In this document: piece by piece, positions 3,950 to 22,780 of the stretch | Layout of the letters: each line of letters starts with the position of its first letter | How positions within the stretch are numbered: the first letter of the stretch is position 1 | IMG/VR virus record: IMGVR_UViG_3300017991_004700 | Span: 1-29,880 of that record | From: a virus | Strand: one strand, 5' to 3' | Length of the DNA stretch: 29,880 bases | Translations under genes and position numbers: made by a program | The notes under the pieces: generated by a model | What the model saw: the letters and a program-made list of their open reading frames with translations, nothing else | The model's database searches: none | What the model was told of the DNA's origin: nothing

Positions 3950-3952
3950 ATT

Positions 3953-3992
3953 TTGACAAAAAGAAAAATTTTTCTTCCAACAGTTGTATAAT
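3953..3992 (+). promoter_or_regulatory. Candidate promoter with AT-rich dyad before the helicase operon
   Basis: GTTGTATAAT lies at 3983-3992 with a consensus TATAAT at 3987-3992. A perfect 16-bp palindrome, AAGAAAAATTTTTCTT, lies at 3961-3976 just upstream. TTGACA occurs at 3953-3958 but is 28 bases from the -10, too far for ordinary sigma-70 use. The same TTGTATAAT core recurs before other operons in the window. The transcription start would fall near 4000, ahead of the gene at 4026. Confidence 0.55.
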
Positions 3993-4025
3993 ATGAAAAT
4001 GAACCGCAGCGGATGAGGTCAGTTC

Positions 4026-5819
4026 ATGAGCATGCTTTTGGCGCGAGATGGGATGCTGTGCGTCCTTGATTGCTATCATGAAAAAGACAAAGTAAAGAAA
4101 ATCGGAGCAATTTGGCATCGGGACTCCAAGCTTTGGGTCATGCCTTTGACGCTTTCCAACGTCGAAGCAGCACTGGACGTGCTTGACGATCCAGCAATTG
4201 AATCAACTCTTGAAGAAGCTCTTACGGCGCAACAAAAAAAAGAAGACCGCCTTTATCAGATTGCAAGGCTTTCTAAAACCGACGAGCCTGTTCGGTTACG
4301 AATTCCCGGTTTGAAAATCCCTTTGTATAATTATCAAAAACTTGGCGTCATGTTTGCCATGACTAATGGTGATGGCGTTTTGATTGCTGACGAAATGGGG
4401 CTTGGAAAAACTCCTACTTCTATTGCTGCAACACTTTTCAGGAAAAATCGCAACAATTGTAAACGTTGTCTGATAGTAGTTCCTGCTGCTGTGAAATGGA
4501 ACTGGCCCATTGAGATTGAGAAATTTTCTGAGGAACCTTACGTTGTAATTGACGGGTTGCCCGATAGTCGCGTGAAACAATGGCTCGGAAAATTGATTTG
4601 TTTGCGGCAAAGTAGCGGCAATTACAAGTATCGTTCTGGCGAGCCATTTTTCTATGTTGTTAATTACGAATTGCTGACGCAGGATTTATTTGGCGGAAAG
4701 AACATCGAAGTCAAAGCAGACGATAGCGTAGCAACGGCGCAACGGAAAATAAAGCAAATCAATAAAGCGAAAGAGAGAGAAGGGAAGCTTTCCTCTGCTC
4801 GCGAACGGGTTTGGGGTTGTATGATTGTTGATGAAATTCACTATGCGAAAAATCATAACAGCAAGAGAACAAGAAACCTCAAAAAAATGAAGTCCGTTTT
4901 TCGTTTGGGGTTGACTGGTACGCCTTTGGATGGGAAGCTTGAAGAACTACACAGCGTCATGCAATTCATAAAACCCGGTTTGTTCACGGGCAAAACGAGA
5001 TTTCTTCAAAGGCACGCCGATTTTGATTTTTGGGGACGCGTGACGCGGTATAAAAGGATAGATGAGGTCCGGGAAAAAATAAAGCCGTTTTTTATTCGCC
5101 GTTTGAAAAAAGATGTAATGAAAGACCTCCCCGACAAGACTTATCAAAACCGCTATATTGAGTTCAATCCTCAAGAAAGAAAAATCTATGAATCCATTGC
5201 TGATCGCAAACATCCCGTAACGGAAGATTCTGAAGCGATGGTAAAGGTTATCCGTTGTAAGCAGTTTTGCGATCATCCTTCCTTGGTTGGTGAAATCTGC
5301 AAATCTTCAAAGATGGACATGTTTATTGAAATCGTCTCTGAATTGATTCGCTACAATGGCGAAAAGGTAATCATATTTTCGCAATACAAGAAGATGCTTG
5401 ACATTATCGACGAAGAGTTGAAAAAACAAAAGTTCACGTTTCTCCGTATCGACGGGGATACGAAACCGAAAATTCGAGCAAGTTATCAAGCGGAATTCAA
5501 CAACAATCCAAAGATCGACGCAATTATCGGTACTGAGGCAATGAGTACGGGTTTGAATTTGCAGGGCGCAACGTATGTTATCAACTATGATGATAATTGG
5601 GCACCAGCGATTATGCGTCAACGTGAAGACCGCGCCCATCGGGATGGACAAAAGAATGCAGTGACTGTGATTAACTTTATCTGTCGCGATACAATTGAAG
5701 AACGCATTCGTGACGTTCTGTTTAGTAAAGAATCCGTGTCTTCCGAGACATTGGGCGATGAAACAGATGAGATGGTATTGAAACGACTCGGCCCGCAAGA
5801 CATGGCCAAGCTGGTCTAA
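4026..5819 (+). CDS. SNF2-family DNA helicase/translocase, SMARCAL1/HARP-like
   Basis: A 597-residue two-lobe SF2 ATPase that would translocate on duplex or branched DNA, as SMARCAL1-type enzymes do when remodelling forks. Visible motifs: Walker A ADEMGLGKTPT (121-131), DEIH (269-272), LTGTP (296-300), then in the second lobe TEAMSTGLNLQGA (503-515) and QREDRAHRDGQ (532-542), the SNF2 motif VI arginine-finger stretch. Residues 1-65 resemble the short domain before SMARCAL1-like ATPases ('I-G-A-I-W-H-R-D-S-K-L-W-V-M-P'). All core motifs are intact and length is normal for a single-domain viral SNF2 protein. It is the first gene after the candidate promoter at 3983 and is followed by the replicative helicase, which fits a replication-fork role. 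Phages commonly carry SNF2 proteins; the substrate here is inferred. Confidence 0.9.
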   Translation: MSMLLARDGMLCVLDCYHEKDKVKKIGAIWHRDSKLWVMPLTLSNVEAALDVLDDPAIESTLEEALTAQQKKEDRLYQIARLSKTDEPVRLRIPGLKIPLYNYQKLGVMFAMTNGDGVLIADEMGLGKTPTSIAATLFRKNRNNCKRCLIVVPAAVKWNWPIEIEKFSEEPYVVIDGLPDSRVKQWLGKLICLRQSSGNYKYRSGEPFFYVVNYELLTQDLFGGKNIEVKADDSVATAQRKIKQINKAKEREGKLSSARERVWGCMIVDEIHYAKNHNSKRTRNLKKMKSVFRLGLTGTPLDGKLEELHSVMQFIKPGLFTGKTRFLQRHADFDFWGRVTRYKRIDEVREKIKPFFIRRLKKDVMKDLPDKTYQNRYIEFNPQERKIYESIADRKHPVTEDSEAMVKVIRCKQFCDHPSLVGEICKSSKMDMFIEIVSELIRYNGEKVIIFSQYKKMLDIIDEELKKQKFTFLRIDGDTKPKIRASYQAEFNNNPKIDAIIGTEAMSTGLNLQGATYVINYDDNWAPAIMRQREDRAHRDGQKNAVTVINFICRDTIEERIRDVLFSKESVSSETLGDETDEMVLKRLGPQDMAKLV

Positions 5820-5855
5820 ATCCCATCCCTATTTAACTCCTTCCTTGAGGTAATC

Positions 5856-7577
5856 ATGTCTTTTGAAACCATGTCTATTGAGCGTCATCTTCTGAAATTG
5901 TTGCTTACGGATATTATGGTCACGCGGCCTTTTATCCTGAATGTAAAAGAGATTTGGTTTTTCGGTTACAGGAAAATCATCTTCAAAATGGCCTTGGAAA
6001 TGTTCCGAGGCTCTGGAACAATTCTTACGCAAGACTTGTTCGAAGCTGAAATTGATAAACTTTATCCCGGTACGACCAAAAAAGAAATGCGGGAAAAGCT
6101 TGTTACTGAATGGACGCTGATCAAACAATGCGACGTACAAGAAGAAGTCAAAGCATTGATTGAAAAGCTTGAAGAAAAGGAATGCATCGGTAGCGTCAGT
6201 TTGATTTGCGAAGAAACACTTGGAAGGATTCAAAAAGGCGACATCAAAGGTGCCGTCCATCTTTTGAAAAAAGAGTCGATTCAACTAAATATTGAAAGTC
6301 AAACGGACCAACCTATGGTTCAAGTGACTGAAGTTAAGGATATTGATCAACGGATTCATGATCAAAAAGCAAACCCCGCTAAATATGGCGGAATCAAAAC
6401 TGGTTTTCAAACGTTTGATAAACTCACGGGTGGTTTATTTCCTGCGGAAATGACTTTGATCGCAGCGTTATCAGGCGTCGGTAAGTCAACGATTTTGAAA
6501 CAGATTGGGTACAATATTGTCATTGGAAATCAGACAGCGAAAAACCCGTATGATCGGTATCCCGGTAAAAACGTCTTACACATAACAAACGAAGAGCACC
6601 GTGATCAGGTCCGTTTGAAGTATCATGCATTGTTTTCCAATATTGACTATTTCCGTTTCAAAAATGCAACCATTGACCCCGCTGGATTGAAGCAATGGAA
6701 AGCGATCATGAAAGAATTGGAACGTGATTGCTACGGACGGTTGTTTATTAAAGATATTGGACAACATTCAACCGTTGCGGAAATTCATAGGGCTTACGCA
6801 GAGTTGGAGCAGATTGGTTTCAAAATTCACGTGATTATTCTTGACTACATGGATCACATGTCGCCAATGCAAAAAGCGTTTAGTGAAAATGATGAACAAG
6901 CAAAAGTGGCAAAAGATTGCAAGGGGATGTGCGTTGAATTCAATCTTCCTTTGGTTACAGCTACTCAAGCTGCAACAAGTGTTGCTAAAAAAGAAGAAAA
7001 AGGGCACCGATTCGGGCGGCAAGACGTGTATGGTTCAAAGCGTCGAGTTCACGCAAGTAACACGTTTATTGGAATCATGCAAAAGCGTTTTGATGACACG
7101 CAGATTGCGAACAAAGATGGAAGCGGTGGCGATAGAGAGGATATTGACGCTTGTGATAGGCTTTTGCTTGCGGAAGTTTGTAAGAACCGAGACAACAGGA
7201 ATTTTGTCTTCAAAATTCGGCATTGCGTAAAAACAGGTCGCGTAGTACAAGAGGATTGGAAAGGCGACGATGATACTGGGAAAACTGGGCCTATCAGTGC
7301 CGACAAAGTTAAGCAAGAACTTGAGAAAGCGTACGAAGAAGGCAGTTTGAAAATAACGGATGAAGAAAAATCCGTCAAAAAACCCGATGAAGAAAAGCAA
7401 TCGGAAGAAGTTCAAAAACGGCCCAAAACGGTTGATCAACCACCACCTGAAGAGAAACCTTCAGAAAAGCCTGAAGAGTTAAACAAAACACCCTCAAACG
7501 GGAGCGAGACGACATCAAAAGGTCTCTTTAACCTTGTTAAATCCATCCGTGACAAACGTAAGAAAAAAGAAGAATGA
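5856..7577 (+). CDS. DnaB-type replicative DNA helicase
   Basis: A 573-residue RecA-fold hexameric helicase candidate, expected to unwind the lagging strand 5'-3' at the fork. Residues 1-145 form a helical DnaB-N-like region. The ATPase core starts at the 'GIKTGFQTFDKLTGGLFPAEMTLIAA' region (about 179-205), with Walker A ALSGVGKS (204-211), a conserved Glu in THITNEEH-type position (244-248), Walker B VIILDYMD (326-333) and the TATQAA motif (368-373). The last 100 residues are Lys/Glu/Pro-rich and probably disordered, longer than in most DnaB proteins; they may dock a loader or SSB. GAGGTA sits just upstream of ATG 5856. Its stop overlaps the start of the initiator-like gene (ATGA), as in phage helicase/initiator pairs. 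Confidence 0.85.
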   Translation: MSFETMSIERHLLKLLLTDIMVTRPFILNVKEIWFFGYRKIIFKMALEMFRGSGTILTQDLFEAEIDKLYPGTTKKEMREKLVTEWTLIKQCDVQEEVKALIEKLEEKECIGSVSLICEETLGRIQKGDIKGAVHLLKKESIQLNIESQTDQPMVQVTEVKDIDQRIHDQKANPAKYGGIKTGFQTFDKLTGGLFPAEMTLIAALSGVGKSTILKQIGYNIVIGNQTAKNPYDRYPGKNVLHITNEEHRDQVRLKYHALFSNIDYFRFKNATIDPAGLKQWKAIMKELERDCYGRLFIKDIGQHSTVAEIHRAYAELEQIGFKIHVIILDYMDHMSPMQKAFSENDEQAKVAKDCKGMCVEFNLPLVTATQAATSVAKKEEKGHRFGRQDVYGSKRRVHASNTFIGIMQKRFDDTQIANKDGSGGDREDIDACDRLLLAEVCKNRDNRNFVFKIRHCVKTGRVVQEDWKGDDDTGKTGPISADKVKQELEKAYEEGSLKITDEEKSVKKPDEEKQSEEVQKRPKTVDQPPPEEKPSEKPEELNKTPSNGSETTSKGLFNLVKSIRDKRKKKEE

Positions 7578-8380
7578 TTCCTGAATACATCAGCATTGCT
7601 TTTCCGCACTTCAAAGGAAAAGAATTGCAAATCATTTACGCCATAAGCAAGCTTATGGAAAATGGTTGTTGCAGTCTTCCTGTGCCGGATATTGCTTACA
7701 AAGCTGGAGTGAGGCGAAAAACAGCAACAACATTGATCAAAAATCTTGAAATTTTGAAAGTCCTCGTTGTCGACAGGATTCCCGGAAAAGCTCCTGTGAT
7801 TTGTTTCGGGGATGCGCAAAGTATTAAACAGCAATGCGATGGACATATCAACGACTTACTTGAAAAACGCCGCAATCAAACAAAAATCGCACGAGAAGTC
7901 AAGGTAGGGTCGTTCAACAACCTGAGTCGTTCAACAACCGGGGTCGTTCAACGACCTGACCCTCCCTTAATTATAGATAAAGAGAATAAAGAAGTAGATA
8001 AGAAAGAAAAGAAAGAAGAAAAGAGAAGAAGAGGAAGAGTAAAAGAAAAGAATGGAAAACCTTCAAAACAACAAAAATCCTCCTCTTTTTCTGCTGCTTC
8101 TCAAACACCGTCAGTTTCAGAACAATCCATGTGCGAAGCAGTTTTTGAGATTTATTCGCAACAAGATTGGTCTGTTCAAAAAACATGGCATCCAAGGTTT
8201 AGCAAAAAGGAAAAAATCCGTCGTCATTGTCAAATCCTTTACGAGCAGGATTGCGCCGACGAATATTTCAGTTGGATTCACTTCAAACTCGTACAGATTG
8301 AAGAAGAGACAGGAAAAAAATACAGTCGTTATTTCGCCACGACGTTGGCTGAGGCTTGGTTTAATGATTTTTTTGATTAA
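7574..8380 (+). CDS. Winged-helix replication initiator-like protein (lambda O-like layout)
   Basis: 268 residues in three parts. Residues 1-85 look like a winged helix, with a recognition region near VPDIAYKAGVRRKTATTLIK, the MarR/DnaD/lambda-O-like 'plug in a regulator and pair helices' pattern. Residues 112-165 are a linker: first the stretch encoded by three 17-bp DNA repeats, then a Lys/Glu/Arg-rich low-complexity run. Residues 180-268 form a separate helical domain rich in aromatic and charged residues, possibly a helicase contact. The gene overlaps the DnaB gene by four bases. DNA-binding head, iterons inside its own gene, AT-rich tract and distinct C-terminal domain match the architecture of lambda O. 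I see no significant primary-sequence identity to O, so this is an architectural call. It could alternatively be a loader or a transcription regulator. Confidence 0.6.
   Translation: MIPEYISIAFPHFKGKELQIIYAISKLMENGCCSLPVPDIAYKAGVRRKTATTLIKNLEILKVLVVDRIPGKAPVICFGDAQSIKQQCDGHINDLLEKRRNQTKIAREVKVGSFNNLSRSTTGVVQRPDPPLIIDKENKEVDKKEKKEEKRRRGRVKEKNGKPSKQQKSSSFSAASQTPSVSEQSMCEAVFEIYSQQDWSVQKTWHPRFSKKEKIRRHCQILYEQDCADEYFSWIHFKLVQIEEETGKKYSRYFATTLAEAWFNDFFD
7909..7956 (+). repeat. Three 17-bp iterons, candidate replication origin
   Basis: GTCGTTCAACAACC occurs at 7909-7922 and 7926-7939, and GTCGTTCAACGACC at 7943-7956, with an exact 17-bp period. Each copy is a dyad; the third, with its flanking G, is a 15-bp palindrome around one central base (GGTCGTTCAACGACC). 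Because 17 is not a multiple of three, the copies are read in three frames and encode unrelated peptides, so conservation is at DNA level. No further copy was noticed elsewhere in the window. Confidence 0.75.
7965..8060 (+). other. Purine-rich AT tract next to the iterons, candidate DNA unwinding element
   Basis: Just after the iterons, TTAATTATAGATAAAG begins a strongly strand-asymmetric tract, almost all A and G to about 8060. It encodes the Lys/Glu/Arg-rich linker of the initiator-like protein. Lambdoid origins have a similar purine-asymmetric AT-rich region beside the O-binding iterons. The unwinding role is inferred from position and composition. Confidence 0.5.
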
Positions 8381-8384
8381 GTTT

Positions 8385-8414
8385 TTGTAAAACCTTTCAA
8401 GCGAGTTGTACAAT
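8385..8414 (+). promoter_or_regulatory. Candidate promoter before the OB/HD-protein gene
   Basis: GTTGTACAAT at 8405-8414 is a one-base variant of the GTTGTATAAT element. TTGTAA at 8385-8390 is 18 bases upstream of TACAAT (8409-8414), a possible -35. The leader then carries AAGGAGG at 8453-8459 for the gene at 8467. Confidence 0.45.
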
Positions 8415-8466
8415 TATAAAAGGTCTTGTGTTTTGTGTGCCGCAATTTTTGCAAGGAGGGTTTGGG

Positions 8467-9489
8467 ATGAATTCAGCGCTTAAAAAAGCAATGAGGCAAA
8501 ATAGCAATTCTTCTAACAAGTCAAACAGTCACGTCTTGATACGCCACGTTAGCGTCGGAGACAGCTTTTCAGGAGTTTATTTCGTTCAAGACGCGTTTGA
8601 ACGTGTTGCCCGGAACGGCAACATCTACAGCGATTGGACGTTGCGTGACCGTTCTGGAGAGTCGTTTGTGCGGCATTGGGGTCCGACAAATGGGATGAAA
8701 CGCAATAATTGGATTGAAATTATCGCAACAGTTGAAGAGTATAGGGGAAAGCTTCAAATCATTGCGCAAGAAATTAAAGAAGCAGACGTTCCTTCTGAAG
8801 CGCAGATGAATGAGAATTATCTAATTCAAAGCGAATCCAAAGAGCAAGATTCAGAAGCGTTTGCTTTGTACCGTGATCGTGTTGATAAAATTTGCGACGA
8901 AATTGACGATCAAACTTGTAGGTTGATTTTGGACTCTGTTTTTTCGGACGCGGTTGAAGCTCACTTCAAAAAAGCACCAGCAAGCGATAAGCCGTTTTAC
9001 GGAATGGATGGTGGCTTGTTGAAGCATACGATAAAAACGGCTTACGCGGTTGCGGGGTTTTCCAAACAGTACGGATTTTCTTCGAAAGAAAGTTGTCTTG
9101 CTGTAACTGCTGCATTGCTTCATCGCGTTGGTGCGTTGGACGCTTTCAGAATCGAAGGTTGTCAACCAGCAATGACCGTTTTTGGAAAGCTTTATGGTAT
9201 TGTGGAATTAAGCTTACGGCACGTGATAAAAGCGGCTGAGTTGGTACAAAGCAAGGAAGGCTTCAAAAGCGAAACCGCACAACGTGTGATTCATGCGATA
9301 AAAGCTCAAGAAGGGCAAGCGATTCTTCCAATGACGAAAGAGGCGATTCTTTTATCAGAAGCCGTGAACATGGATATCAAGCTTGTCAATGCGATCGAGT
9401 TTATTGACAACGACTTGAATTCGGACGATGAATTCACGGCATTTGATCCAATCAGCAAGCGCCAATTCTTCAAAGGCAGCGACGCGTGA
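8467..9489 (+). CDS. OB-fold plus HD-domain protein, YhaM-like, with altered HD motif
   Basis: 340 residues from ATG 8467, chosen because AAGGAGG at 8453-8459 sits 7 bases upstream; an in-frame ATG at 8428 lacks such a site. Residues 25-105 look like an OB fold ('SDWTLRDRSGE', 'IIATVEEYRGKLQIIAQEI'), and residues about 140-315 align in layout with the HD domain of YhaM, a 3'-5' exoribonuclease. The first metal His is present (LLKHT, H187). The signature HD dyad reads HR (ALLHRVGA, H219-R220), and the later H-H-G segment reads KAQEG. Loss of the metal-binding Asp suggests a non-catalytic nucleic-acid-binding protein. It lies between the origin-like region and the primase, so a role in primer or template binding is possible but inferred. 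Confidence 0.7.
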   Translation: MNSALKKAMRQNSNSSNKSNSHVLIRHVSVGDSFSGVYFVQDAFERVARNGNIYSDWTLRDRSGESFVRHWGPTNGMKRNNWIEIIATVEEYRGKLQIIAQEIKEADVPSEAQMNENYLIQSESKEQDSEAFALYRDRVDKICDEIDDQTCRLILDSVFSDAVEAHFKKAPASDKPFYGMDGGLLKHTIKTAYAVAGFSKQYGFSSKESCLAVTAALLHRVGALDAFRIEGCQPAMTVFGKLYGIVELSLRHVIKAAELVQSKEGFKSETAQRVIHAIKAQEGQAILPMTKEAILLSEAVNMDIKLVNAIEFIDNDLNSDDEFTAFDPISKRQFFKGSDA

Positions 9490-9648
9490 ATGCGTTGCGT
9501 GAAACGTGCGTATTTTTCTCAGAAAGTTCCAACAAAGTTCACGGCAAACGCTGCCGGTGCGGTTAAGGTTAATAAAGGTTCGGTGATTTGGAAAGCATTC
9601 GCGACAAGCTTTCGTTTGGTGATATTTCTTGGCTCATGCCCAAGATAG
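9490..9648 (+). CDS. Possible small basic protein (52 residues)
   Basis: An open frame starts at an ATG directly after the stop of the preceding gene (TGAATG) and runs to TAG at 9646-9648. The product would be basic, starting Met-Arg-Cys-Val-Lys-Arg. It fills an otherwise empty 98-base gap and overlaps the primase start. No ribosome binding site stands out and I recognise no family. It may simply be leader sequence of the primase gene. Confidence 0.25.
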   Translation: MRCVKRAYFSQKVPTKFTANAAGAVKVNKGSVIWKAFATSFRLVIFLGSCPR

Positions 9649-10655
9649 ACGTTCAGCTTGTTTTGGAGCGGCTCAACGTTCGGTTGCTTCCTAATCGCAT
9701 GGGAAATCAAATCTACGGGTGGTGTCCTGATCATTATATCCACGTTAAAAGGAATCCGAGCCATCCGAAATGGACGATTAACGTCGAAACGGGCCAGACG
9801 ATGTGTTTTACGGAGGGAAGAGGAAGTAATCTGGTTTGGATCGTTTCAAGGTTGAGAAAGTGCTCTCCCAAAGAAGCCGTCGATTGGATGCTGGGAGATA
9901 GCAAAGGGATTTCTAACATGGAAATTGCCAGCTTGAAAAAGCAATTCAAAAAGTTGCGGAGAAAGAAGGCGGCAAGCAAAGGGAAAGCTACCAACCAAGC
10001 GGTGGAGAGCGTCAAACGGTGGTTGAGAACGGAGACGATGGTGCAAAGTGGATATGAGTATTTTATGCGACCTCCGGGGAAAAAGCCCACGTTGATCGAG
10101 AAAGAAACTGTTGACCGCTATCGTTGCGTGCAATTACGTTCTGGGTATTACGCCAACCGGGTTGTTATTCCGTTCTTCTCGAAGAAGACGCTAATCGGTT
10201 TTGAGGCCGTTGATGTTCTCGGAAAGAAAGAATGGCTTCGACGCCATCCGACGCTTGAAGAGAACCAATATAAGAAGGTTCTCTACTCAAAAGGGTTCAA
10301 ACGTAGCGAGTATCTTTTTGGATTGGATGAAATTCAGAGTCAAGAAATAGTCGCCCTGACCGAAGGCGCACGTGAAGTCATGAAATTACGGCAATTGGGA
10401 TATCCGGCGGTTGCAATTTTAGGCGCAAGCGTCAGCCAGAAGCAAATTATGCTTTTGGCAGAAGCCAACCCCAAAAGCTTAATTTTGCTATTCGACGGTG
10501 ATGATGCGGGTTACGAAATTCAGCGCAAGGTTTTCAAGCAAATGAGTGAGTTTTTTGAAACGCATAAAGGGACGGTTCGGCGTGGTTACGACCCCAAAAC
10601 GCTACCGCCCGAAGAGGTCAAAAAATTATTTGGAAAGTTTGGATTTTTCTCTTGA
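9588..10655 (+). CDS. DnaG-type primase
   Basis: 355 residues that would synthesise RNA primers for the DnaB/DnaE fork. The N-terminal zinc-ribbon-like region has CPDH (C46, H49) and C73 in CFTEG; DnaG normally has CxxH...CxGC, so the fourth ligand is replaced by Glu. The Toprim core has the catalytic Glu in LTEGARE (E259) and the DxD motif FDGDDAG (D303, D305, D306), all intact. The protein lacks the C-terminal helicase-binding domain of cellular DnaG, being about 240 residues shorter, as in several phage primases. Start: TTG 9588 with AAAGG ten bases upstream gives this length; ATG 9636 is a shorter alternative that still includes the zinc and Toprim regions. A promoter lies right over its stop codon. 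Confidence 0.85.
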   Translation: MESIRDKLSFGDISWLMPKIDVQLVLERLNVRLLPNRMGNQIYGWCPDHYIHVKRNPSHPKWTINVETGQTMCFTEGRGSNLVWIVSRLRKCSPKEAVDWMLGDSKGISNMEIASLKKQFKKLRRKKAASKGKATNQAVESVKRWLRTETMVQSGYEYFMRPPGKKPTLIEKETVDRYRCVQLRSGYYANRVVIPFFSKKTLIGFEAVDVLGKKEWLRRHPTLEENQYKKVLYSKGFKRSEYLFGLDEIQSQEIVALTEGAREVMKLRQLGYPAVAILGASVSQKQIMLLAEANPKSLILLFDGDDAGYEIQRKVFKQMSEFFETHKGTVRRGYDPKTLPPEEVKKLFGKFGFFS

Positions 10656-10679
10656 CTTCGAGAGAAAACACGCTATAAT
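10645..10679 (+). promoter_or_regulatory. Sigma-70-type promoter with dyad, before the sigma-like gene
   Basis: TTGACT (10652-10657), a 16-base spacer and TATAAT (10674-10679) form the best consensus promoter in the window. An inverted repeat, TTTTCTCT (10645-10652) and AGAGAAAA (10661-10668), straddles the -35 and could be an operator. It drives the gene at 10764 after a leader of about 78 bases. Confidence 0.75.
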
Positions 10680-10763
10680 TAAAGAGCTTAAAATTGTGTG
10701 TTCTATGTTTTGTGTTTTGCGTTGTGTGGCCGGTAATCGGTTCTTTTTACAAAGGGCGCTCCC

Positions 10764-11444
10764 ATGTCTGAAGTAATCACTTCTGAACGTAACTTCAAAC
10801 AGGTTTTGAAAGAGGACGAGATTTGTGATAGCCCATATACTCGTGAAGGGCTTGCCGTGCTCATTGCGGAAGGCGAAGCAAACGAGTTTGAGAAACAGCT
10901 TTTCCACGACTCCATTGTCCGCGCCATTTACACCATCGTTTTTCGCTACGGCGAATGCGATACGCGCGTGCCGGTGGAAGAGCTTGCGAACGACGCAGAA
11001 TTGGCGTTGTGGAAGAACCTGCCTTTCTTCAAAAAGGAAAAAGGCGTCAAGTTTATCACGTGGATGTGGCGTGTGGTTCGGAATCATGTGTTCAATCACC
11101 GCAAGCGGGTGACCCGTTATAGAACGAATCAGAAAATTACGACCAACATGTCTTCAGAGGAAAGCGAGTTTATCACGACTCGCGCTTGCGACGAAAGTCT
11201 TTCAAACGCAGACAAGTCGTGGCAGATGAAAAACGCCATGCAGTTGCTTTTTGATGCTTACCCGGAAAAGCAGAAAATGCTGCTCGCTCTTTTTGGCGAT
11301 CCGTTTTCTGAAAACTTTTCAGGAAAGAAGCCGAACTTTGTCCGCGTGGCGAAAAAGTTGAAAACGAAAATGAACGATGTTCGGCGCTTTTGCAATCACG
11401 TTGCGTATCCGTTCTTGAAAAAGCACTTGGACGATCTGTTATAG
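10764..11444 (+). CDS. Sigma-70-family-like transcription factor
   Basis: 226 residues. Residues about 45-115 match sigma region 2 in pattern: 'DSIVRAIYTIVFRYGECDTRVPVEELANDAELALWKNL' type helices, then KGVKFITWMWRVVRNHVFNHRKR, which follows the region 2.3-2.4 pattern of an aromatic F-x-T/I-W...V-R-N-x-V-x-x-x-x-R and would contact -10 DNA. The C-terminal part (about 170-226) has a basic helical segment in the place of region 4 but is divergent. Phages use such factors to redirect host RNA polymerase to later genes. It sits alone behind a near-consensus host promoter, while other operons use a different -10-like element, which fits a regulatory switch. An alternative is a general sigma-fold DNA-binding protein without polymerase contact. 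Confidence 0.65.
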   Translation: MSEVITSERNFKQVLKEDEICDSPYTREGLAVLIAEGEANEFEKQLFHDSIVRAIYTIVFRYGECDTRVPVEELANDAELALWKNLPFFKKEKGVKFITWMWRVVRNHVFNHRKRVTRYRTNQKITTNMSSEESEFITTRACDESLSNADKSWQMKNAMQLLFDAYPEKQKMLLALFGDPFSENFSGKKPNFVRVAKKLKTKMNDVRRFCNHVAYPFLKKHLDDLL

Positions 11445-11455
11445 AGGGGCAAGCC

Positions 11456-11905
11456 GTGGCGAGTAAAAAATTTGGCAAGGAGATGAAGCATCTTGAGGAC
11501 AATATGAAAATGGGTGCATGCTATCGCCATTTTAGAAGCGATTCGGCAAACTGCAAAAACTGTCTCGCAAAATTGCTTTGCAGAAGCGCGACAGCGACGG
11601 CGGTTGGCGTTATGGAAGAGCAGAGTTTTGAAGAGATTTTGATTGAAGAATTGAAAGAGAAATTTCAATTCGCAAGGTCAAAACAAGGAGAAAGCTGCAA
11701 CTGTTACTGGTTTGAGTTTGGCCCAATCCCCATTCAAATTTGGATCGCGAAGTCAGGTAATATGAAAATAAGGATTGGTTACGAAAACAACAACAAGGTT
11801 TATGAAACGAAGAAAGACAGCGTTGAAGAAATAGATAGTTTCGTCAAACAATTGATGGATGATTCCAAAGAGTTTGGGACGGCTCATGCAAACAAGGGAA
11901 TATGA
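11456..11905 (+). CDS. Small protein with C-x10-C-x2-C-x5-C motif, unknown function
   Basis: About 149 residues from GTG 11456, preceded by GAGGGG at 11444-11449; a longer frame from 11390 would overlap the sigma-like gene by 55 bases. The N-terminus carries Cys at 22, 33, 36 and 42, the same spacing class as the C-terminal tail of the SSB at 16222 (C-x11-C-x2-C-x5-C), probably a zinc or protein-contact knuckle. The rest is alpha/beta: a Glu-rich helix, a WFEFGPIPIQIWIAKSG strand pair and a final amphipathic helix ending near a KQLMDDSKE stretch. No family is recognised. It overlaps the helicase N-half gene, so the two are probably co-translated. Confidence 0.6.
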   Translation: MASKKFGKEMKHLEDNMKMGACYRHFRSDSANCKNCLAKLLCRSATATAVGVMEEQSFEEILIEELKEKFQFARSKQGESCNCYWFEFGPIPIQIWIAKSGNMKIRIGYENNNKVYETKKDSVEEIDSFVKQLMDDSKEFGTAHANKGI

Positions 11906-12803
11906 GTATTTCGAGTTTCCTTTTAACAACTTCAACAAAGCGCAAGCCGCTGCCATTCCGCACATCCCAACCGAAACAAACCTCGTGATTTCATTCCCTA
12001 CCGCTACTGGCAAAACTGCGCTGGCCGAAGCAGCTTTCGGTTTTCATTTCAAAACATCCCCAAATTCAAAATGTGTCTATGTGTCGCCGTATCGTTCCTT
12101 GAGCATGCAGCAATACAATGCATGGAAAGAGAACGCGCAGTTTTCCAAACATGGAATCGTTTTAAGCATAGGTGATCGTTTTGCGTGTAAAGAGGATTTC
12201 GATTCAAACCGTTTGATTATCTTGACTACAGAATCATTTGACTCGAAGACGAGGAATCAAAGCCAACATAAATGGTTAAAAGAAATTACTTGTATAGTTT
12301 TTGACGAAGCGCATTTATTGGGGACAAAAGGGCGTGGCGACAACGTAGAAGTTTCATTGGTGCGTTTTACAAAGCTGAACCCAAAAGCAAGAATTATTTT
12401 GCTGTCCGCGACAATGGAAAATGCAGGAGAATTATCGTCGTGGTTGAAAAGTTTGAACAAAAAGACGACGTTGAAAATCGTAAGCACGTGGCGTCCATCA
12501 AAAATCGTAACACGCTTTTACACGTTCGATGATGAAAAGACTTGGGAAAAGAAAATTGAGTTAGCAAAGCAGCTTGCAACAACTCCACGTGGTGAAAAAA
12601 TAGTCGTTTTTGTTCATAGTAAAAAGCTTGGGAAAGAAATTACGAAGGCAGTTAGAAAAAAGGGTTTCATTTGCGAATTTCATAATGCAAATTTATCGCA
12701 CTCAAGGCGAAAAGCAATTGAAGAAGCATTCGACAATGTCCGTTCGGGGTTGGACATCCTTGTGAGTACATCAACATTGTCAAGTGGAGTGAATTTAGGA
12801 TGA
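11886..12803 (+). CDS. Hel308/Ski2-like helicase, N-terminal part (split gene)
   Basis: About 305 residues from ATG 11886 (ATG 11859 would add nine). It contains a Q-motif-like start (FNKAQAAAIP), Walker A PTATGKTA (38-45), DEAH (140-143), LLSATMENA with motif III SAT (174-176), and the start of the second RecA lobe, ending in motif V, VSTSTLSSGVNLG. In Hel308 proteins this motif continues as GVNLPA and then motif VI. Here the frame stops right after GVNLG and the uracil-DNA glycosylase gene begins at the overlapping ATGA. The missing continuation starts at 13371. The piece has a full first lobe but lacks the arginine finger of motif VI, so it can hardly hydrolyse ATP efficiently without the other half. 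Confidence 0.85.
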   Translation: MQTREYEYFEFPFNNFNKAQAAAIPHIPTETNLVISFPTATGKTALAEAAFGFHFKTSPNSKCVYVSPYRSLSMQQYNAWKENAQFSKHGIVLSIGDRFACKEDFDSNRLIILTTESFDSKTRNQSQHKWLKEITCIVFDEAHLLGTKGRGDNVEVSLVRFTKLNPKARIILLSATMENAGELSSWLKSLNKKTTLKIVSTWRPSKIVTRFYTFDDEKTWEKKIELAKQLATTPRGEKIVVFVHSKKLGKEITKAVRKKGFICEFHNANLSHSRRKAIEEAFDNVRSGLDILVSTSTLSSGVNLG

Positions 12804-13381
12804 ACAAGGCGGAACGTCTCACAGAATTGCAACAGAAGTGCTATGCTTGTAAGAAGTGTGCCATTGGCGGGCAAGACGTTGATGGTCATTTGAGCAACGT
12901 GTGGTCTAATATGAGCATGAAAGCTCAAATCATGGTAATAGGGCAGAATCCCGGTTACGTTGAAGTAGAACGTGGAAAACCTTTTGTCGGGCCGTCGGGT
13001 GAATTTTTTGATAAGGCAATTGAAGAAGTTTTAGGAATTGATAGAACGCATTTTTACATTACGAATACGTGCCACTGCTATACGGCAAAAAACCGCAAGC
13101 CAAGCAATGTCGAAATTGAAAATTGTTGCGAATTTTTAGACGCTGAAATCGAAGCCGTAAACCCAAAAATCATCGTGACCTTGGGAGCGCCATCGTTGGA
13201 GCAGGTGACTGGGCGAAAAGGAATAATGAAACTTCATGGTCAAAAGATAATTTCATTACGATACAAAAAGAACGTTTTGCCCCTATTGCATCCAAGCCCA
13301 AGAAATATGAACAAGCCTGAATTGAAAGTGAAATTTTATCAAGACTTAGAAGTCCTCAAAGAATATCTCAATGGCAGATAG
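12800..13381 (+). CDS. Family 4 uracil-DNA glycosylase (Fe-S type), inserted in the helicase gene
   Basis: 193 residues that would excise uracil from DNA. Motif 1 is MVIGQNPGYVE (GQNPG 48-52), followed by GKPFVGPSG; motif 2 is LLHPSPRN (HPSP 164-167). The four iron-sulphur ligands fit family 4 spacing: C14-x2-C17 and C93-x15-C109. ITNTCHC (87-93) matches the conserved strand before the third ligand. Family 4 enzymes usually have GExPG in motif 1; here Glu is replaced by Gln, with Asn before Pro. Its ATG overlaps the stop of the helicase N-half and its last codons overlap the ATG of the C-half, so the open reading frame fills the insertion completely. All conserved catalytic-region features are present, so it looks functional. 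Confidence 0.85.
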   Translation: MNKAERLTELQQKCYACKKCAIGGQDVDGHLSNVWSNMSMKAQIMVIGQNPGYVEVERGKPFVGPSGEFFDKAIEEVLGIDRTHFYITNTCHCYTAKNRKPSNVEIENCCEFLDAEIEAVNPKIIVTLGAPSLEQVTGRKGIMKLHGQKIISLRYKKNVLPLLHPSPRNMNKPELKVKFYQDLEVLKEYLNGR

Positions 13382-14369
13382 AATTGTTATTGTAGACATC
13401 TGGCGTGGCCGAGAGCGCGTTTCAACGGCAGAAATTTTGCAGATGGCAGGCCGGTGTGCCCGGCAACCAAACCAAATAGGTCATGTTGATATCATTATTA
13501 ACGAAGATGACGTACAAACGTTGAAAGATGAAATGCAGGACGCAGATCATCTTCGAGTTGATTCTGTTCTGTACGATGCAGAAACGCTTGCTTTTCATCT
13601 CGTTTCTGAAATTAGCAGCGGGGAGATAAGGACGCTTTCAGAGGCAAAAAGATGGTACGGAAAAAGTTTCGCGGCGTTTACGGGGTTTTCTTGTGAAGTG
13701 GAGCAAGCAGTTGACTTGCTTTCTGAAGAATGGGAGACAATAACGCGCCGGGGCGATTTTCTTTTTCCTACAGATTTGGCGCATATCGCGAGTCGTTTTT
13801 ATTTTCATCCAGCAGACATTTACTATTGGCGGGAAAATTTTTTTGAGCTTTTTGAAAGTGAACTTCAAAAAAATGATCCAGCAATTGCTTGGGCGCTATC
13901 TAATGTCGCGAGAGAGCGAAAAAGGGGCAATCTGTACGGTTGTTGGGAGTTGATAGAAGAATACAAAGACCAAGTGTCTTCACTTGGCTTAGACTGTTCA
14001 AAAACGATTGCTGGTGGCTTGGTTTGGTGGAGTCTTTTAGGAGGGCCGTCAACAAGCAAACTGTCCAGTCAAAAGAAAGAAGCAAAAGAGGATTTCGGGC
14101 GCATTTATGGTGCGCTCTTAAAGATCAACGAATGCTCGGGATGGGACAAACGGAAGTTTTTTGAGGATTTGAGAGTACGGATAGCATACAAAATCCCTGA
14201 TGAACTTGTAAACTTGTGTAAACTTGAAGGAATTGGAAAAAGTGTTGCGTTTGAGTTGTATAATTTAGGAGTGGAAAACGCGGAAGGAATTCGTGAAAAC
14301 TGGGACGCAATTGAAACGTTTGGAACTGACGAACTGATAGAAAAATTGAGACACTTGTCTTATGGCTAA
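13371..14369 (+). CDS. Hel308/Ski2-like helicase, C-terminal part (split gene)
   Basis: 332 residues that begin where the N-half ends. MADRIVIVDIWRG supplies the strand after GVNLPA in Hel308, followed by motif VI QMAGRCAR (24-31; Hel308 QMAGRAGR). Next come a winged-helix-like region (about 75-130), a helical Sec63/ratchet-like region (about 140-270), and a helix-hairpin-helix, CKLEGIGKSVAFELYNLGV (about 284-302), which binds DNA in Hel308. There is no first RecA lobe. It lies in the same reading frame as the N-half, separated by a multiple of three bases. It probably associates with the N-half to form one enzyme acting at forks or recombination intermediates; that association is inference. 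Confidence 0.85.
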   Translation: MADRIVIVDIWRGRERVSTAEILQMAGRCARQPNQIGHVDIIINEDDVQTLKDEMQDADHLRVDSVLYDAETLAFHLVSEISSGEIRTLSEAKRWYGKSFAAFTGFSCEVEQAVDLLSEEWETITRRGDFLFPTDLAHIASRFYFHPADIYYWRENFFELFESELQKNDPAIAWALSNVARERKRGNLYGCWELIEEYKDQVSSLGLDCSKTIAGGLVWWSLLGGPSTSKLSSQKKEAKEDFGRIYGALLKINECSGWDKRKFFEDLRVRIAYKIPDELVNLCKLEGIGKSVAFELYNLGVENAEGIRENWDAIETFGTDELIEKLRHLSYG

Positions 14370-14832
14370 AGATTTTTGGTTTACAGAGCGGGCAGTCAAA
14401 GCTTTCACACAAGCGGCTGATAATGGAGAGCTATCTCCTCGTCACGTTCGTGATGTAATCCGTTACAAGACTCTCAATATTGATGAGACATTGTTCGAGC
14501 CTTACTTGAAGTCAAGCAATGATTGGGTACGCAGGTGTACTGCGCAAGTGCTTGGAGAAATTGGCAGTAATCTAAAGCCATTAATTGAAGCCGCAAAGAT
14601 AGAGCAGAACAAAAGCACGCTGATAGAAATATTAAAACAATTGATGAAAAGCCGCGAAGGACTTGAAGAGTTAGTTTATTTGCTTGAGTCGAAAGATACG
14701 GCAATCAAAGAGCAGGCAATTGGTATGTTCAGACGTGCTGGTCGTTCAGATTGTTTAATGACGTTGCTTTTTGATGACGATGATTCGATGGTAAGCCGTA
14801 TCAAGCGGTATATGGACGAAGCAAATAAATGA
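14362..14832 (+). CDS. HEAT-repeat-like protein, unknown role
   Basis: 156 all-helical residues. Residues 50-140 show about three helical pairs with the HEAT pattern: 'DWVRRCTAQVLGEIG', 'NKSTLIEILKQLM', 'DTAIKEQAIGMFRRAG' and 'DDSMVSRIKRYMD', each with a D-x-x-V/I-R/K at the pair start. Such small repeats act as protein-protein scaffolds. It overlaps the helicase C-half by eight bases and the next gene by four, so it is made together with the split helicase and could bridge its parts or its partners. No catalytic residues are visible. Confidence 0.65.
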   Translation: MAKDFWFTERAVKAFTQAADNGELSPRHVRDVIRYKTLNIDETLFEPYLKSSNDWVRRCTAQVLGEIGSNLKPLIEAAKIEQNKSTLIEILKQLMKSREGLEELVYLLESKDTAIKEQAIGMFRRAGRSDCLMTLLFDDDDSMVSRIKRYMDEANK

Positions 14833-15509
14833 TTTCACGGCACGGTATTTCTTCGACACGAGAAGCAAGGTACAAGCGATTTCACTTGTGGCTCGTAGAA
14901 ATGTCAACGCTGTATGGGGTTGTTGATGATCCAGAGTTGAGAGATGTTATACATATTTTGCTTGAAAAACTTGAGAACAGAATAAGCGCAAATAAAGAAC
15001 AAGAAGAAGGAAAGCGCAAGAAAAAAGTACGCAGTTTCTTTGCAATCTTCAAACAAAAATATCTTCAATTAACAGATTTGGAATATTTTGGAGGATTCAA
15101 AGCAACAGAAGCAAAAATCATTGAAGGTTTGATAGGAAAACTGGAGCAAAATGGCGCAACGATGGAAGAGTATCTCAAGTGGTTGTTTGACGAGTTTTAT
15201 ATCAACAAAGAACAACTGTCTCCAAACATTCCTTTGTCCGTAAGTAATAGTGTCTTGCAAGAGTTCATGTATAAAAACGCGGCAAAGCTCAAAAATAGGA
15301 AACAGGCAAAAGAAGCCATAGAAGAGGAAGAATTGCTTTTGAGAAGGGCAGGCGTTCTCATACGGTCAAGCAAGGACGAAGGCTTTAAGCAAGAAGTGGT
15401 TACGCTATTGAAGCATTATCAAAAATCCGAATGCAATTTGCCAGAGTTTCGGTTAGAGCTTAAAAAATTATCAGAAAAGTTTGAAAAACTTAAAAGCCAA
15501 AGTGTATAA
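14829..15509 (+). CDS. Unknown helical protein in the helicase operon
   Basis: 226 residues, highly charged (Lys/Glu) and predicted helical. A middle part (residues about 70-115) has aromatic-rich 'FFAIFKQKYLQLTDLEYFGGFKATEAKII', a compact-looking segment; the C-terminal 70 residues look like an amphipathic coiled region. I do not recognise a family. It overlaps the HEAT-like gene (ATGA) and its stop codon is buried in the next promoter's TATAAT. A helper of the helicase or recombination genes is plausible by position only. Confidence 0.6.
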   Translation: MISRHGISSTREARYKRFHLWLVEMSTLYGVVDDPELRDVIHILLEKLENRISANKEQEEGKRKKKVRSFFAIFKQKYLQLTDLEYFGGFKATEAKIIEGLIGKLEQNGATMEEYLKWLFDEFYINKEQLSPNIPLSVSNSVLQEFMYKNAAKLKNRKQAKEAIEEEELLLRRAGVLIRSSKDEGFKQEVVTLLKHYQKSECNLPEFRLELKKLSEKFEKLKSQSV

Positions 15510-15510
15510 T
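15477..15510 (+). promoter_or_regulatory. Candidate promoter with dyad before the recombination operon
   Basis: TATAAT at 15505-15510 overlaps the stop of the previous gene, with TTGAAA at 15481-15486 and an 18-base spacer. An inverted repeat, AAGTTT (15477-15482) and AAACTT (15486-15491), covers the -35. The leader to the gene at 15566 is about 50 bases. Confidence 0.6.
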
Positions 15511-15565
15511 TGAAAAGCATGAGTTTTGTTGTTGGTCGTTTGTACTTTGTAATAAGGGTTGAGCG

Positions 15566-16177
15566 ATGAAAACAAATTTGAGCGAGACTGTAGAAAAGGT
15601 AGGAAATGCATGCGAGGAAGCAGGGAAAAGCACCATTCTTGGCATTTCTCTTGAAAACCCATCTCCACGCCTGTTAGACGTCCGCGACGGAAGTTTTGAC
15701 GAGCACGTTGCAATGCAACCAGCGGCAATTGCGTATTTCGGCGTGCTCAAAAAGGAAGCATTGAGGCAACATGACTCAATGAAACACGCTTACGAGCGTT
15801 GGCAGAAAAAGAAATTTCAAGAAGCAAGAAAAGCTTTGGAAGGCGCAAGTCAACCGGGTCAAAAAAAGGCCACTATATCTGATATTGAAGCATTCGTAAT
15901 CATTAACAATGAGAGAAAAATTGAAGAGTGGGAAACCAATTTGTCCTATTTGCAGGAACAGGTGGATACGTTGGATTCATGGTACGAAGCGTGGCGGCAA
16001 AAATCATTTAGTCTTCGCGAACATGGCCAAACAGTTTCGGATGAACGCAAGACACAACCATATTTGTTCGGCAAGAAAGAAGAAACAGATGGAACTCCAG
16101 CTAAAAGAAAACATCAATCTACTATTGATAGGGTTAGACAGATGAAGAAAAATAAAAATGGAAAGGGGGATAAGTAG
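15566..16177 (+). CDS. UvsY-like recombination mediator (tentative)
   Basis: 203 residues. The centre follows the two-helix layout of phage UvsY-like mediators: 'PAAIAYFGVLKKEALRQHDSMKHAYERW', a linker, then 'SDIEAFVIINNERKIEEWETNLSYLQEQVDTLDSWYEAWRQKSFSLREHG', a long amphipathic helix. UvsY helps the recombinase displace SSB from single strands. The position supports it: the next two genes are a gp32-like SSB and RecA/UvsX. The C-terminus is basic (Lys/Arg-rich), suiting ssDNA contact. Sequence similarity is of pattern rather than of recognisable motif, so another ssDNA-binding helper is possible. AAGGG precedes the ATG by about 9 bases. Confidence 0.5.
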   Translation: MKTNLSETVEKVGNACEEAGKSTILGISLENPSPRLLDVRDGSFDEHVAMQPAAIAYFGVLKKEALRQHDSMKHAYERWQKKKFQEARKALEGASQPGQKKATISDIEAFVIINNERKIEEWETNLSYLQEQVDTLDSWYEAWRQKSFSLREHGQTVSDERKTQPYLFGKKEETDGTPAKRKHQSTIDRVRQMKKNKNGKGDK

Positions 16178-16221
16178 TTTGTCGTGTGTAGTTTGTTTAT
16201 TCATTTTGAAAGGAGATTGTC

Positions 16222-17328
16222 ATGGGCGATAGCGTTTTAGACAAGGTAAAGAAGTTTCGAGAAAGTCGGCCAAAGGGTCAGAATTTCAAAAAGCAAAGGG
16301 ACATTTTCTTCAAGTTTGAAGATGGCGACAACATCATTCGTCTGGTGGGAGAATTCTTGGAAGTAAAGACGCATTTTATTTCTCCAAACCATCAACGGGG
16401 TGATCGTGGCCTTTGCATTTCGGAAGCGTTCAAAGGAGAAGGCAGATTGCCAAAAATGATCAATTGCCCGAATTGGGACATTGAAAATGAAAAGGCAAAA
16501 GAGGAGAAAACGTGCCCTATTTGCAAGCTTTGGCGCGTTGCGAAAAACGCGCTCAAAGAAGCAGGACAAGAAATTGAACCGCAGGACAAGCAGTTTCTTG
16601 AAAACCTTGTAAGCGACGCAAGCGTTACCACGGCGTTGAAGTGGAACGTTATTGATCGTCGAAGCCCCAACGTTACAGAAGTTGATGATGCTGGCGTTGA
16701 AAAACAGGTTTTGGGGTACAAGGTTGCGAACATAGGAATGGAAGCGTGGAACGATGTTGACGGGATTTTCAAGCAGCTAAAAGTTGATATTAGTGACGCT
16801 AAAGAAGGCGTTGATATCAATATTATCAAAGGACACAACGGCGCTCGTGTTTGCTATTCTGCTGTTGCCGTTACACAGGGAATGAGCGTGAAACAAACGC
16901 CATTGACTGATGAAGAAAAGAAAATGACGCTTCATGACTTGCGTCGCATCGCGGGTCGCATGGTTGAACCTCAAAAAATCGTTGACGGTTTACATGATGA
17001 CTTGCGGGAAATTCTTGAAAGCGCAGAGGGAGAGACAACGCCTTCAAGCGAAGAAGCTCCCGCAAGTGAAAGCGCGGTTACGAGCGAACCAGAATCTCAG
17101 GAAGAAAGTACGCCGGAAGAAGAGAAAGAAAAGCCGGAGAAAAAGAGAATGCCGCCGCTGAGTGAAGGTTTTGGCGATGACTTTTCCGACGATAAAGAAA
17201 AGGACAAAGAAAAGCCGACTTGGGATTGTTTTGGAACGGTTGATGATCCAAGCCACGACGAGTGCGCAAAGTGTGACAGCCTTGCGGATTGCATCATTGA
17301 AGCAAAGAAACGCGCAAGCAAGGAATAA
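16222..17328 (+). CDS. T4 gp32-like single-stranded DNA-binding protein
   Basis: 368 residues that would coat ssDNA at the fork and in recombination. The opening 'FFKFEDGDNIIRLVGEFLEVKTHF' matches the gp32-type OB start. Zinc candidates are H51, C65, C82, C98 and C101 (NCP...CPIC), comparable to the H-C-C-C site inserted in the gp32 OB fold. Residues about 275-335 are a Glu/Ser/Pro/Lys-rich flexible region like the acidic tail that recruits partners in gp32. Unlike gp32, the end carries another Cys cluster (C336, C348, C351, C357, CFGTVDDPSHDEC type). AAAGGAG precedes ATG 16222, and a strong terminator follows the gene, so it may be highly expressed. Confidence 0.8.
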   Translation: MGDSVLDKVKKFRESRPKGQNFKKQRDIFFKFEDGDNIIRLVGEFLEVKTHFISPNHQRGDRGLCISEAFKGEGRLPKMINCPNWDIENEKAKEEKTCPICKLWRVAKNALKEAGQEIEPQDKQFLENLVSDASVTTALKWNVIDRRSPNVTEVDDAGVEKQVLGYKVANIGMEAWNDVDGIFKQLKVDISDAKEGVDINIIKGHNGARVCYSAVAVTQGMSVKQTPLTDEEKKMTLHDLRRIAGRMVEPQKIVDGLHDDLREILESAEGETTPSSEEAPASESAVTSEPESQEESTPEEEKEKPEKKRMPPLSEGFGDDFSDDKEKDKEKPTWDCFGTVDDPSHDECAKCDSLADCIIEAKKRASKE

Positions 17329-21364: not shown

Positions 21365-22780
21365 ATGGAAAAGAATCTTTGGGAACGTAAAGGTATCATC
21401 GGCGGTCATGAAATCAAGCCTGATGACAATATTGATTCTGCCAATAAGGAGAATATGAAAATGGCAAAGGACAAGAAAGACTTAAAGCTTGATCCGAATT
21501 TTGGAGACGAATCGCAGGAGCAAAATATGCCAAAGAGCGAAGAAAAACCAACGGAGGAAATTGTAGAAGCGCCAGCAGCAGGACTGTTTGTTCCAAATAT
21601 TCCAATGCCTGTAACGGCAGAGGAAAGCAAGGAAATAATTAAGGACCAGTGCGAAGTAGCGTTCAAGATTGCTTTTGTTGGTGCAGGTCAAGCTGGCGCG
21701 AGGATGGTTGAAGCGTTCTACAAACTTGGTTATCGCCGCGTTTGTGCTGTAAACACAACCAGTCAAGACCTTGTTGCAATTGATATCCCAGATGAAAACA
21801 AGTTTGTTATGGACATTGGGGAAGGCGGCGCAGGCAAGGAACCAGAGAAGGGCGAACAGGCAGTCAAAAAGCATTATGAGAACGTTTATGATCTGATGCG
21901 TCGGAGTTTTGGAAAAGACTTCGAACGGATTATTGTTTGTATCGGCGCTGGGGGAGGAACGGGTAGTGGATCAATTGAAACATTGATCGATATTGCTCAC
22001 GACATTGCAGAGTCTTTCAAACTGGAAGGCGGACCGGAACAGGTACCGGCTGTTGGCGCGTTGGTTTCAATGCCGATGTCCAATGAGAGTCAGAAAGTAA
22101 ACGCTAACGCTTCAAAAGTTCTTGAGGTTCTTTTTGGACGTGTTGGAAAAGACAAAGGTGGAAGATTGTCTCAAAGGACGATGTCGCCATTGATAGTTGT
22201 CGACAATGACAGAATCAGCAAACTATATCCGGGGTTGCCAGTTACGCAGTTTTGGAGCGTCGCAAATCAAAGCATCAGTGGGCTATTCCACTTGTTTAAC
22301 AACATTGCGGCTGCGAAAGGCGAAAATACAATTGCGACGTTTGACCGTGCAGATTTCGCAGATGTCCTCAAGAGTGGCGTAATTACATTTGGAGCAACAC
22401 CATTGATCAAATGGCAGAACGAAACGGATATCAGTTTTGCAATCAGAGAGAATTTGAAGCATAACATTCTTGTTGCTGATATTGATTTAGGCTCTGCGGC
22501 TGTTGCAGCAGGCGTTGTAATTGGCAAGGACAAAATTTTGAATTCTGTCCCGCAAGATTATTTGAACCATGGATTTGAAATGCTTGGACGGATCATGAAA
22601 ACAAATAGCGTTGTCCATCGTGGAATCTATAAGTTGGGAGAAGCGATGGATAACGTAAAAGAACAGCCGGATTTAGTCGTTTACACAGCATTTGGAGAAC
22701 TCGGAAAGCCAGACGCAAGAATGGAAGAAATTCAACGTCTTGGCGCAGTCGATCAACAAAACAGAATGCGTTTGAGATGA
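21365..22780 (+). CDS. FtsZ/tubulin-like GTPase
   Basis: 471 residues. The nucleotide-binding half starts at residue 100 with FKIAFVGAGQAGARMVEAFYKLG, the tubulin/FtsZ opening. The tubulin signature is intact at 196-203 (GGGTGSGS, in IIVCIGAGGGTGSGSI). A T7 loop-like stretch, FDRADFADVLKSG (326-338), keeps the acidic residues (D327, D330, D333) that complete the GTPase site of the next subunit, resembling FtsZ NVDFADV. The C-terminal half follows the activation-domain layout. Residues 1-95 are an unusual charged N-terminal extension. A second start with AAGGAG upstream exists at 21461. Phage tubulins such as PhuZ form filaments that position DNA or capsids. It overlaps the aldo-keto reductase gene by four bases. 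Confidence 0.8.
   Translation: MEKNLWERKGIIGGHEIKPDDNIDSANKENMKMAKDKKDLKLDPNFGDESQEQNMPKSEEKPTEEIVEAPAAGLFVPNIPMPVTAEESKEIIKDQCEVAFKIAFVGAGQAGARMVEAFYKLGYRRVCAVNTTSQDLVAIDIPDENKFVMDIGEGGAGKEPEKGEQAVKKHYENVYDLMRRSFGKDFERIIVCIGAGGGTGSGSIETLIDIAHDIAESFKLEGGPEQVPAVGALVSMPMSNESQKVNANASKVLEVLFGRVGKDKGGRLSQRTMSPLIVVDNDRISKLYPGLPVTQFWSVANQSISGLFHLFNNIAAAKGENTIATFDRADFADVLKSGVITFGATPLIKWQNETDISFAIRENLKHNILVADIDLGSAAVAAGVVIGKDKILNSVPQDYLNHGFEMLGRIMKTNSVVHRGIYKLGEAMDNVKEQPDLVVYTAFGELGKPDARMEEIQRLGAVDQQNRMRLR

Follow-up and report, generated by a model that had tools for sequence, protein, structure and literature searches.

Why should a DNA-repair gene lie inside the coding sequence of a helicase, at one codon of a catalytic motif? 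The question is raised by the virus record IMGVR_UViG_3300017991_004700, the whole of which (29,880 bases) is the window analyzed here and in which an open reading frame (ORF) for a uracil-DNA glycosylase (UDG) separates the two halves of a Ski2-type superfamily 2 (SF2) helicase gene. An earlier sequence-only reading of this DNA had proposed a search for the same arrangement in related phages, and two divergent IMG/VR records with a UDG in the split were recovered, here called L010 (3300017987_005486) and L125 (3300035698_022419). We consider it likely that the locus is a "gene in pieces", in which an insertion after motif V, at an endonuclease target site, divided an intact phage gene for a Ski2-type helicase, a UDG gene became the inherited resident of the break, and three coupled proteins are now made, with the helicase halves rejoining.

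Layout of the locus

The predicted features, all on the + strand, are as follows.

11886..12803, +, N-half of the Ski2-type SF2 helicase, with RecA1 and most of RecA2 and motifs I (GKT), II (DEAH), III (SAT) and V (STLSSGVNL), then G and stop; start taken from conservation with L010 and L125
12786..12789, +, GGAG within the motif V codons, putative ribosome-binding site for the UDG, 10 nt before its start
12798..12803, +, 5' junction GGATGA: last N-half codon GGA, stop TGA overlapping the UDG ATG; identical hexamer in L125
12800..13381, +, family-4-like UDG ORF of 193 aa, with Cys 17/20/93/109 and motif A GQNPG
13371..13381, +, 3' junction ATGGCAGATAG, where the C-half start overlaps the UDG stop
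13371..14369, +, helicase C-half, with the last RecA2 strands and motif VI (QMAGRCAR), then helical C-terminal domains

The boundaries given by the sequence-only reading were correct to the base. The N-half terminates in STLSSGVNLG, followed by a TGA ending at 12803 and overlapping the UDG in ATGA, and the C-half opens with MADRIVIVD, overlaps the UDG by 11 bases and reaches QMAGRCAR 24 residues in. The exact split in motif V was also borne out, both by the ORF ends and by the Hel308 alignment given below. The ORF finder placed the N-half start at 11859; a start shared with both UDG-split relatives (M-K/R-T/V-S-E-Y) favours 11886. The spacing of GGAG before the insert is identical in L125 and similar in L069 (3300036983_000110), a third interrupted record described below. 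A Shine-Dalgarno-like tetramer was present in motif V of 45 of 48 intact loci, counted by a loose pattern (any of five tetramers within 18 nt) without a shuffle control, and a Shine-Dalgarno role for it is an idea only. A further record, IMGVR_UViG_3300017960_000024, overlaps positions 1-16300 of the window with one mismatch and the same gene arrangement; it is probably the same virus and therefore argues only against misassembly. The split of the helicase by the UDG in the window is real.

The interrupted gene encodes a Ski2-type helicase

Pfam DEAD and Helicase_C domains were detected in the N-half, where the Helicase_C match reaches only position 81 of its 110-position profile; no Pfam helicase match was obtained for the C-half. 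The helicase family PHROG 6819 matched both halves in order (profile positions 18-302, then 322-460). AlphaFold models built on alignments of 51 and 54 rows reached a mean predicted local distance difference test score of 89.0 for the N-half and 93.4 for the C-half, the final N-half residues being of low confidence (block means 69 and 49). RecA1 and the first RecA2 strands are modelled in the N-half. The C-half model opens with a strand, followed by the motif VI helix and a further strand, which would be the remaining RecA2, and then by helical domains. The two half-models are thus predicted to span jointly the whole fold of archaeal Hel308/Hjm and eukaryotic Brr2/ASCC3, from which the window protein differs in being viral, in consisting of two polypeptides and in having 13-32% identity to the listed chains.

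The top Foldseek match for either half was Hel308 (9b15_A). With a second aligner, the N-half was aligned to residues 1-340 of this chain (Z 24.5, root-mean-square deviation 3.6, 285 aligned) and the C-half to residues 339-681 (Z 14.2, root-mean-square deviation 5.9, 320 aligned). In the profile alignment the C-half begins at Hel308 residue 339 (PARRV), directly after motif V, the placement on which the sequence-only reading had staked its proposal. Solved Hel308 and Brr2 each contain both parts within a single chain, and the features of Ski2-type SF2 helicases (RecA1, RecA2, helical C-terminal domains and motifs I-VI) are all found across the two polypeptides. The term "Hel308-like" used in that reading holds for the fold but not for the family, the curated NCBIfam Hel308 model having scored 97.8 bits with the N-half and 23.1 bits with the C-half against a cut-off of 1200, which either half alone was bound to miss and of which their sum also falls far short. 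Because the N-half is by sequence nearer to Brr2/ASCC3 than to Hel308, because Brr2 chains equal or exceed Hel308 in structural score (best Z 27.7 for the N-half and 17.0 for the C-half) and because the Hel308 cut-off is so distant, "Ski2-type helicase" is the safe name. In the alignments that contain the window no catalytic position varies, and both pieces still look functional.

The resident of the break resembles family 4 glycosylases

The inserted ORF has a Pfam UDG domain, N-terminal and central cysteine pairs and an HPSP motif, as do the family 4 enzymes of PDB entries 4zbx and 1vk2. Cysteines 17, 20, 93 and 109, which we take to be the four iron-sulfur cysteines of family 4 UDG, are invariant in the window, L010 and L125 and align to cysteines of 4zbx. 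Assignment to family 4, as claimed from sequence, came close: TIGR00758, the curated family 4 model, was among the best-matching UDG models, but the scores of the window (118.3 bits), L010 (113.6) and L125 (123.9) were near and below its cut-off of 125.3. Motif A also departs from that family. It reads GE.PG in family 4 (GEAPG in 4zbx) and GxNPG in the TDG/SMUG form, and is GQNPG in all three UDGs (12941-12955 in the window). Given this motif A, the substrate choice of the enzyme may differ.

Intact and split relatives

From IMG/VR, 109 redundant loci were fetched, one contributing profile search giving the best 80 of 125. At the split point, 95 of them had no gap and 13 had one, and one was without a helicase. 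Narrow queries (the single window C-half or UDG, or split-clade alignments) each returned one to three loci, and profiles containing an intact helicase were needed to recover the wider set; a UDG match without helicase (L122) was set aside. Omitting near-copies left 55 of 112 rows, after five with a half shorter than 250 aa had been dropped (L110, L114, L092, L089 and L039). The helicase of one of these, L114:5001-6986, shows several apparent frameshifts, perhaps assembly errors. In the non-redundant set 48 helicases were uninterrupted at the split point and seven were interrupted. A single ORF across that point is also seen in two phages: the uncultured phage LR756511.1, where it is 675 aa long, and Microcystis phage Mvi-JY20 (L005), which is not placed in the tree as its C-half gave no tblastn match. 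A scan of genome contigs returned 11 weak loci, among them a single helicase ORF of 1000 aa (L141). Intact homologues therefore exist, and the halves are not separate genes lacking an intact ancestor, an outcome that the sequence-only reading had named as fatal to it.

Among the 55 helicases, one clade (support 100/100) unites the window with L010 and L125, the last of these outermost. Identities to the window for N-half, UDG and C-half were 62, 68 and 50% in L010 and 43, 44 and 33% in L125, in which, as in the window, the UDG is the only insert and the junction is GGATGA. Across the clade UDG identities track those of the helicase, as expected if the UDG had been present in the break since before the three lineages parted.

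Mobile elements at the conserved motifs

In L010 the order is N-half, endonuclease, UDG, C-half, with overlapping starts and stops. The additional ORF, of 290 aa, has Cys-rich repeats and matched DUF559 with 42.0 bits (Pfam cut-off 20.6) and Vsr below cut-off. L069, of a separate lineage and without a UDG in its record, has an endonuclease-like ORF alone at the same split point. The L010 and L069 inserts align at 26% identity over 69 residues (E 2e-5), a short alignment on which common descent is not claimed. A search for relatives of the L010 endonuclease returned 12 loci, one of them L010's own; in all three loci tested on both sides (L127, L130 and L136) the relative splits an N6/N4 DNA methyltransferase gene.

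Three codons upstream of the split, at WG|CNL, in-frame LAGLIDADG inteins of about 1290 bp were found in L018 (= L108), L060, L086 and L106. LAGLIDADG_3 was above cut-off in all four, and Intein_splicing was above it in L060 and L086 and below it in L018 and L106. Three intein rows are in the non-redundant set; they lie among intact rows and, like L069, outside the UDG-split clade. Motif II (DE|CH) is interrupted by inteins in L092:3360-4502 and L089:3360-4496, with Intein_splicing below cut-off and the ends seen in translation, and a motif II intein was ascribed to L039 on the basis of its near match to L089 in hit pattern.

The endonuclease of L010, the endonuclease-like ORF of L069 and the inteins three codons upstream together indicate that mobile endonucleases of two unrelated classes have docked repeatedly at motif V of this phage helicase, and with motif II included the conserved motifs of the gene are hit repeatedly. 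Such a docking site would explain the striking codon choice of the split. The resemblance to the target choice of inteins and homing endonucleases, remarked on from the window sequence, is upheld by these relatives.

Origin of the break and fate of its products

An insertion after motif V, at a site repeatedly targeted by mobile endonucleases, would have split a once-intact helicase gene, the first split presumably caused by an endonuclease. A UDG gene would then have taken the break and been passed on together with the split helicase. Each of the three overlapping ORFs would yield a protein of its own, with coupled translation, and the helicase pieces would rejoin non-covalently, each completing the RecA2 sheet of the other and restoring activity. 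Purifying selection, the kept motifs, the dispensability of read-through and the lack of an intron or intein in the window all argue for coupled proteins and rejoining halves; by analogy, the halves may reassemble as other split phage enzymes do. The sequence-only reading had offered either a repair complex in which the halves re-assemble with the UDG or an unusual mobile arrangement, and the evidence favours the two together, the origin lying in a site at which mobile elements dock and the function in halves that reassemble. Ratios of nonsynonymous to synonymous differences (pN/pS) for N-half, UDG and C-half were 0.27, 0.22 and 0.46 against L010 and 0.47, 0.44 and 0.54 against L125, rough values since dS was infinite in five of six comparisons, and purifying selection appears to act on all three ORFs.

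Besides these infinite distances, several observations weigh against the gene-in-pieces reading. No DUF559 was found in the window, the overlapping record or L125, other endonuclease families not having been searched for, so that the case for an endonuclease as the cause of the first split is indirect. The nuclease matches of the L069 ORF are weak (PF18741 at E 0.00046 and DUF559 at E 1.3e-4, both below cut-off, with no NCBIfam match). Long branches lead to L069 and to L125, the latter of unusual letter composition, and every record may be a fragment. The C-half is the fastest-evolving of the three ORFs, which could mean relaxed constraint. Label shuffles, made over the seven interrupted rows only, were not strong (33 of 500 as low for the UDG, 29 of 500 for the intein). 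The tree is midpoint-rooted, the tool warned of long branches, and the count of changes covers the interrupted rows with the 48 intact ones left out, so that the intein rows may or may not stem from separate gains. In view of the weak shuffles, the root and the long branches, we rely on the clade and its intact outgroups and not on the deep order.

The endonuclease and the UDG may instead have arrived together as a composite cassette, as they stand in L010, the endonuclease having later been lost near-precisely in the window and L125 lineages and the UDG being relic cargo; we regard this as unlikely, if conceivable. The gene order of L010 with its overlapping starts and stops would fit such a cassette, as would the splitting of other genes by relatives of its endonuclease. 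With the midpoint root, however, L125 branches outside the window and L010, and the cassette requires two independent losses that both left GGATGA; it is simpler to suppose that L010 gained the endonuclease once, at a later point. A review tells of an endonuclease possibly invading an already split phage gene (PMC2988022). The tree thus favours, as the simplest order, a UDG split first and entry of the endonuclease into L010 later, since the reverse order needs two losses.

Selection may also have kept the UDG where it is, if its co-translation between the helicase pieces lets a uracil-excising, unwinding repair complex assemble on one mRNA, a proposal we hold to be doubtful. That the UDG, translated between the pieces, itself joins them in a three-part machine excising uracil at unwound DNA, the gene break having turned useful and been kept by selection, seems to us rather improbable. 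In all three lineages found, deeply diverged as they are, the UDG has kept its place between the halves, but vertical inheritance of a hard-to-undo insertion predicts the same pattern. Moreover, of 41 records searched for a UDG domain only seven, L010 and L125 among them, had one, and none was found in the other 34; in two it stands alone (L160 and L161; G012 and G038). In three intact-helicase records branching near the clade (L096, L097 and L116; one fork is weak) the UDG is fused to a DNA polymerase. The partner is a family A polymerase in L157:394-3687 and L159:1574-4117 and DNA polymerase III alpha in L165:299-3574, from the record of L097. To judge from these fusions, the UDG can belong to the replication apparatus in this neighbourhood, and a working link with the helicase is plausible. 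Inteins occur in two of the fusions themselves: that of L165 has one directly after the GEAPG of its UDG, with an HNH_3 match below cut-off, and that of L157 has one in the polymerase.

That one full-length helicase is produced, whether by splicing of the RNA, by trans-splicing of the protein or by recoding across the UDG, appears very improbable. In the window, as in L125, the halves do share a frame, the window UDG lying in a different one, and the segment 12798-13373, counted from the GGA codon at 12798-12800, is 576 bases. This arithmetic was already part of the sequence-only reading and is correct, but the frame coincidence carries no weight because the L010 insert is 1459 bp, a length not divisible by three, so that read-through is not needed. 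The absence of room for an intron core, stated in the same reading, agrees with the Rfam searches, which gave four chance-level matches, none an intron, up to E 5 across 11500-14700 and no match at gathering scores in L010, L069 and L125; a group I or II intron in the window was rejected for lack of a credible match. The N-half stops one residue past motif V, leaving no intein piece, no Pfam intein match was obtained in the three window ORFs, with the UDG out of the helicase frame, and no slippery heptamer was seen by eye at the ORF overlaps. The junction sequences and the frame of L010 led to the rejection of a split intein or recoding. An assembly artefact or dead gene is the least credible possibility, since, although the data are metagenomic and L114 shows that frameshifted assemblies occur, the break recurs in the overlapping record and in two divergent ones, the catalytic motifs are kept and pN/pS is well under 1.

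Relation to known genes in pieces

Dassa et al. reportedly described in 2009 "fractured genes" in which Vsr-like endonuclease ORFs lie between the two parts of conserved phage genes. L010, with its Vsr-like endonuclease ORF between gene parts, resembles these, but no split inteins flank the break here and no endonuclease was seen in the window. The locus agrees with a gene in pieces in that a conserved gene is present as two ORFs split at a critical site and has intact relatives, and departs from it in that the insert in the window is a UDG and not an endonuclease gene.

According to the review, nrdA of Aeromonas phage Aeh1 is split by mobE and is reportedly active in its split form, mobA is inserted in a T4 topoisomerase gene, and split enzymes of T4-like phages reassemble (PMC2988022). 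The window locus is similar in that a compact ORF cuts a phage gene at a functionally critical point into two polypeptides, and differs in that the resident there is an endonuclease and here a DNA-repair glycosylase, in a Ski2-type helicase. Literature searches found no paper on a UDG in a split helicase, weak evidence of absence given thin coverage of the subscription literature, and neither PMC7776575 nor PMC2147016, in the parts available, concerns one.

The split is old, and what is new with respect to known genes in pieces is that a repair enzyme occupies the break. Known phage genes in pieces are split by selfish endonucleases, whereas here an ordinary repair enzyme has been kept over deep divergence. 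At one codon, an endonuclease-like insert alone, an endonuclease with a UDG, and a UDG alone are found, a concrete case of how mobile endonucleases might leave new gene neighbourhoods behind. The helicase, cut through its RecA2 core, also offers a testable case for self-assembly.

Other genes in the window

An FtsZ/tubulin-like protein is encoded at 21365-22777 (Pfam Tubulin above cut-off; NCBIfam FtsZ at E 4.6e-17, below cut-off), for which tblastn gave no match in 50,697 phage records. The gene at 4026-5819 is for a separate helicase, of SNF2 type, whose N-terminus is weakly matched by DUF5710. The C-half is directly followed, at 14362-14832, by a gene for a HEAT-repeat protein that is conserved in L010 (57%) and has, by eye, a similar ORF in L125.

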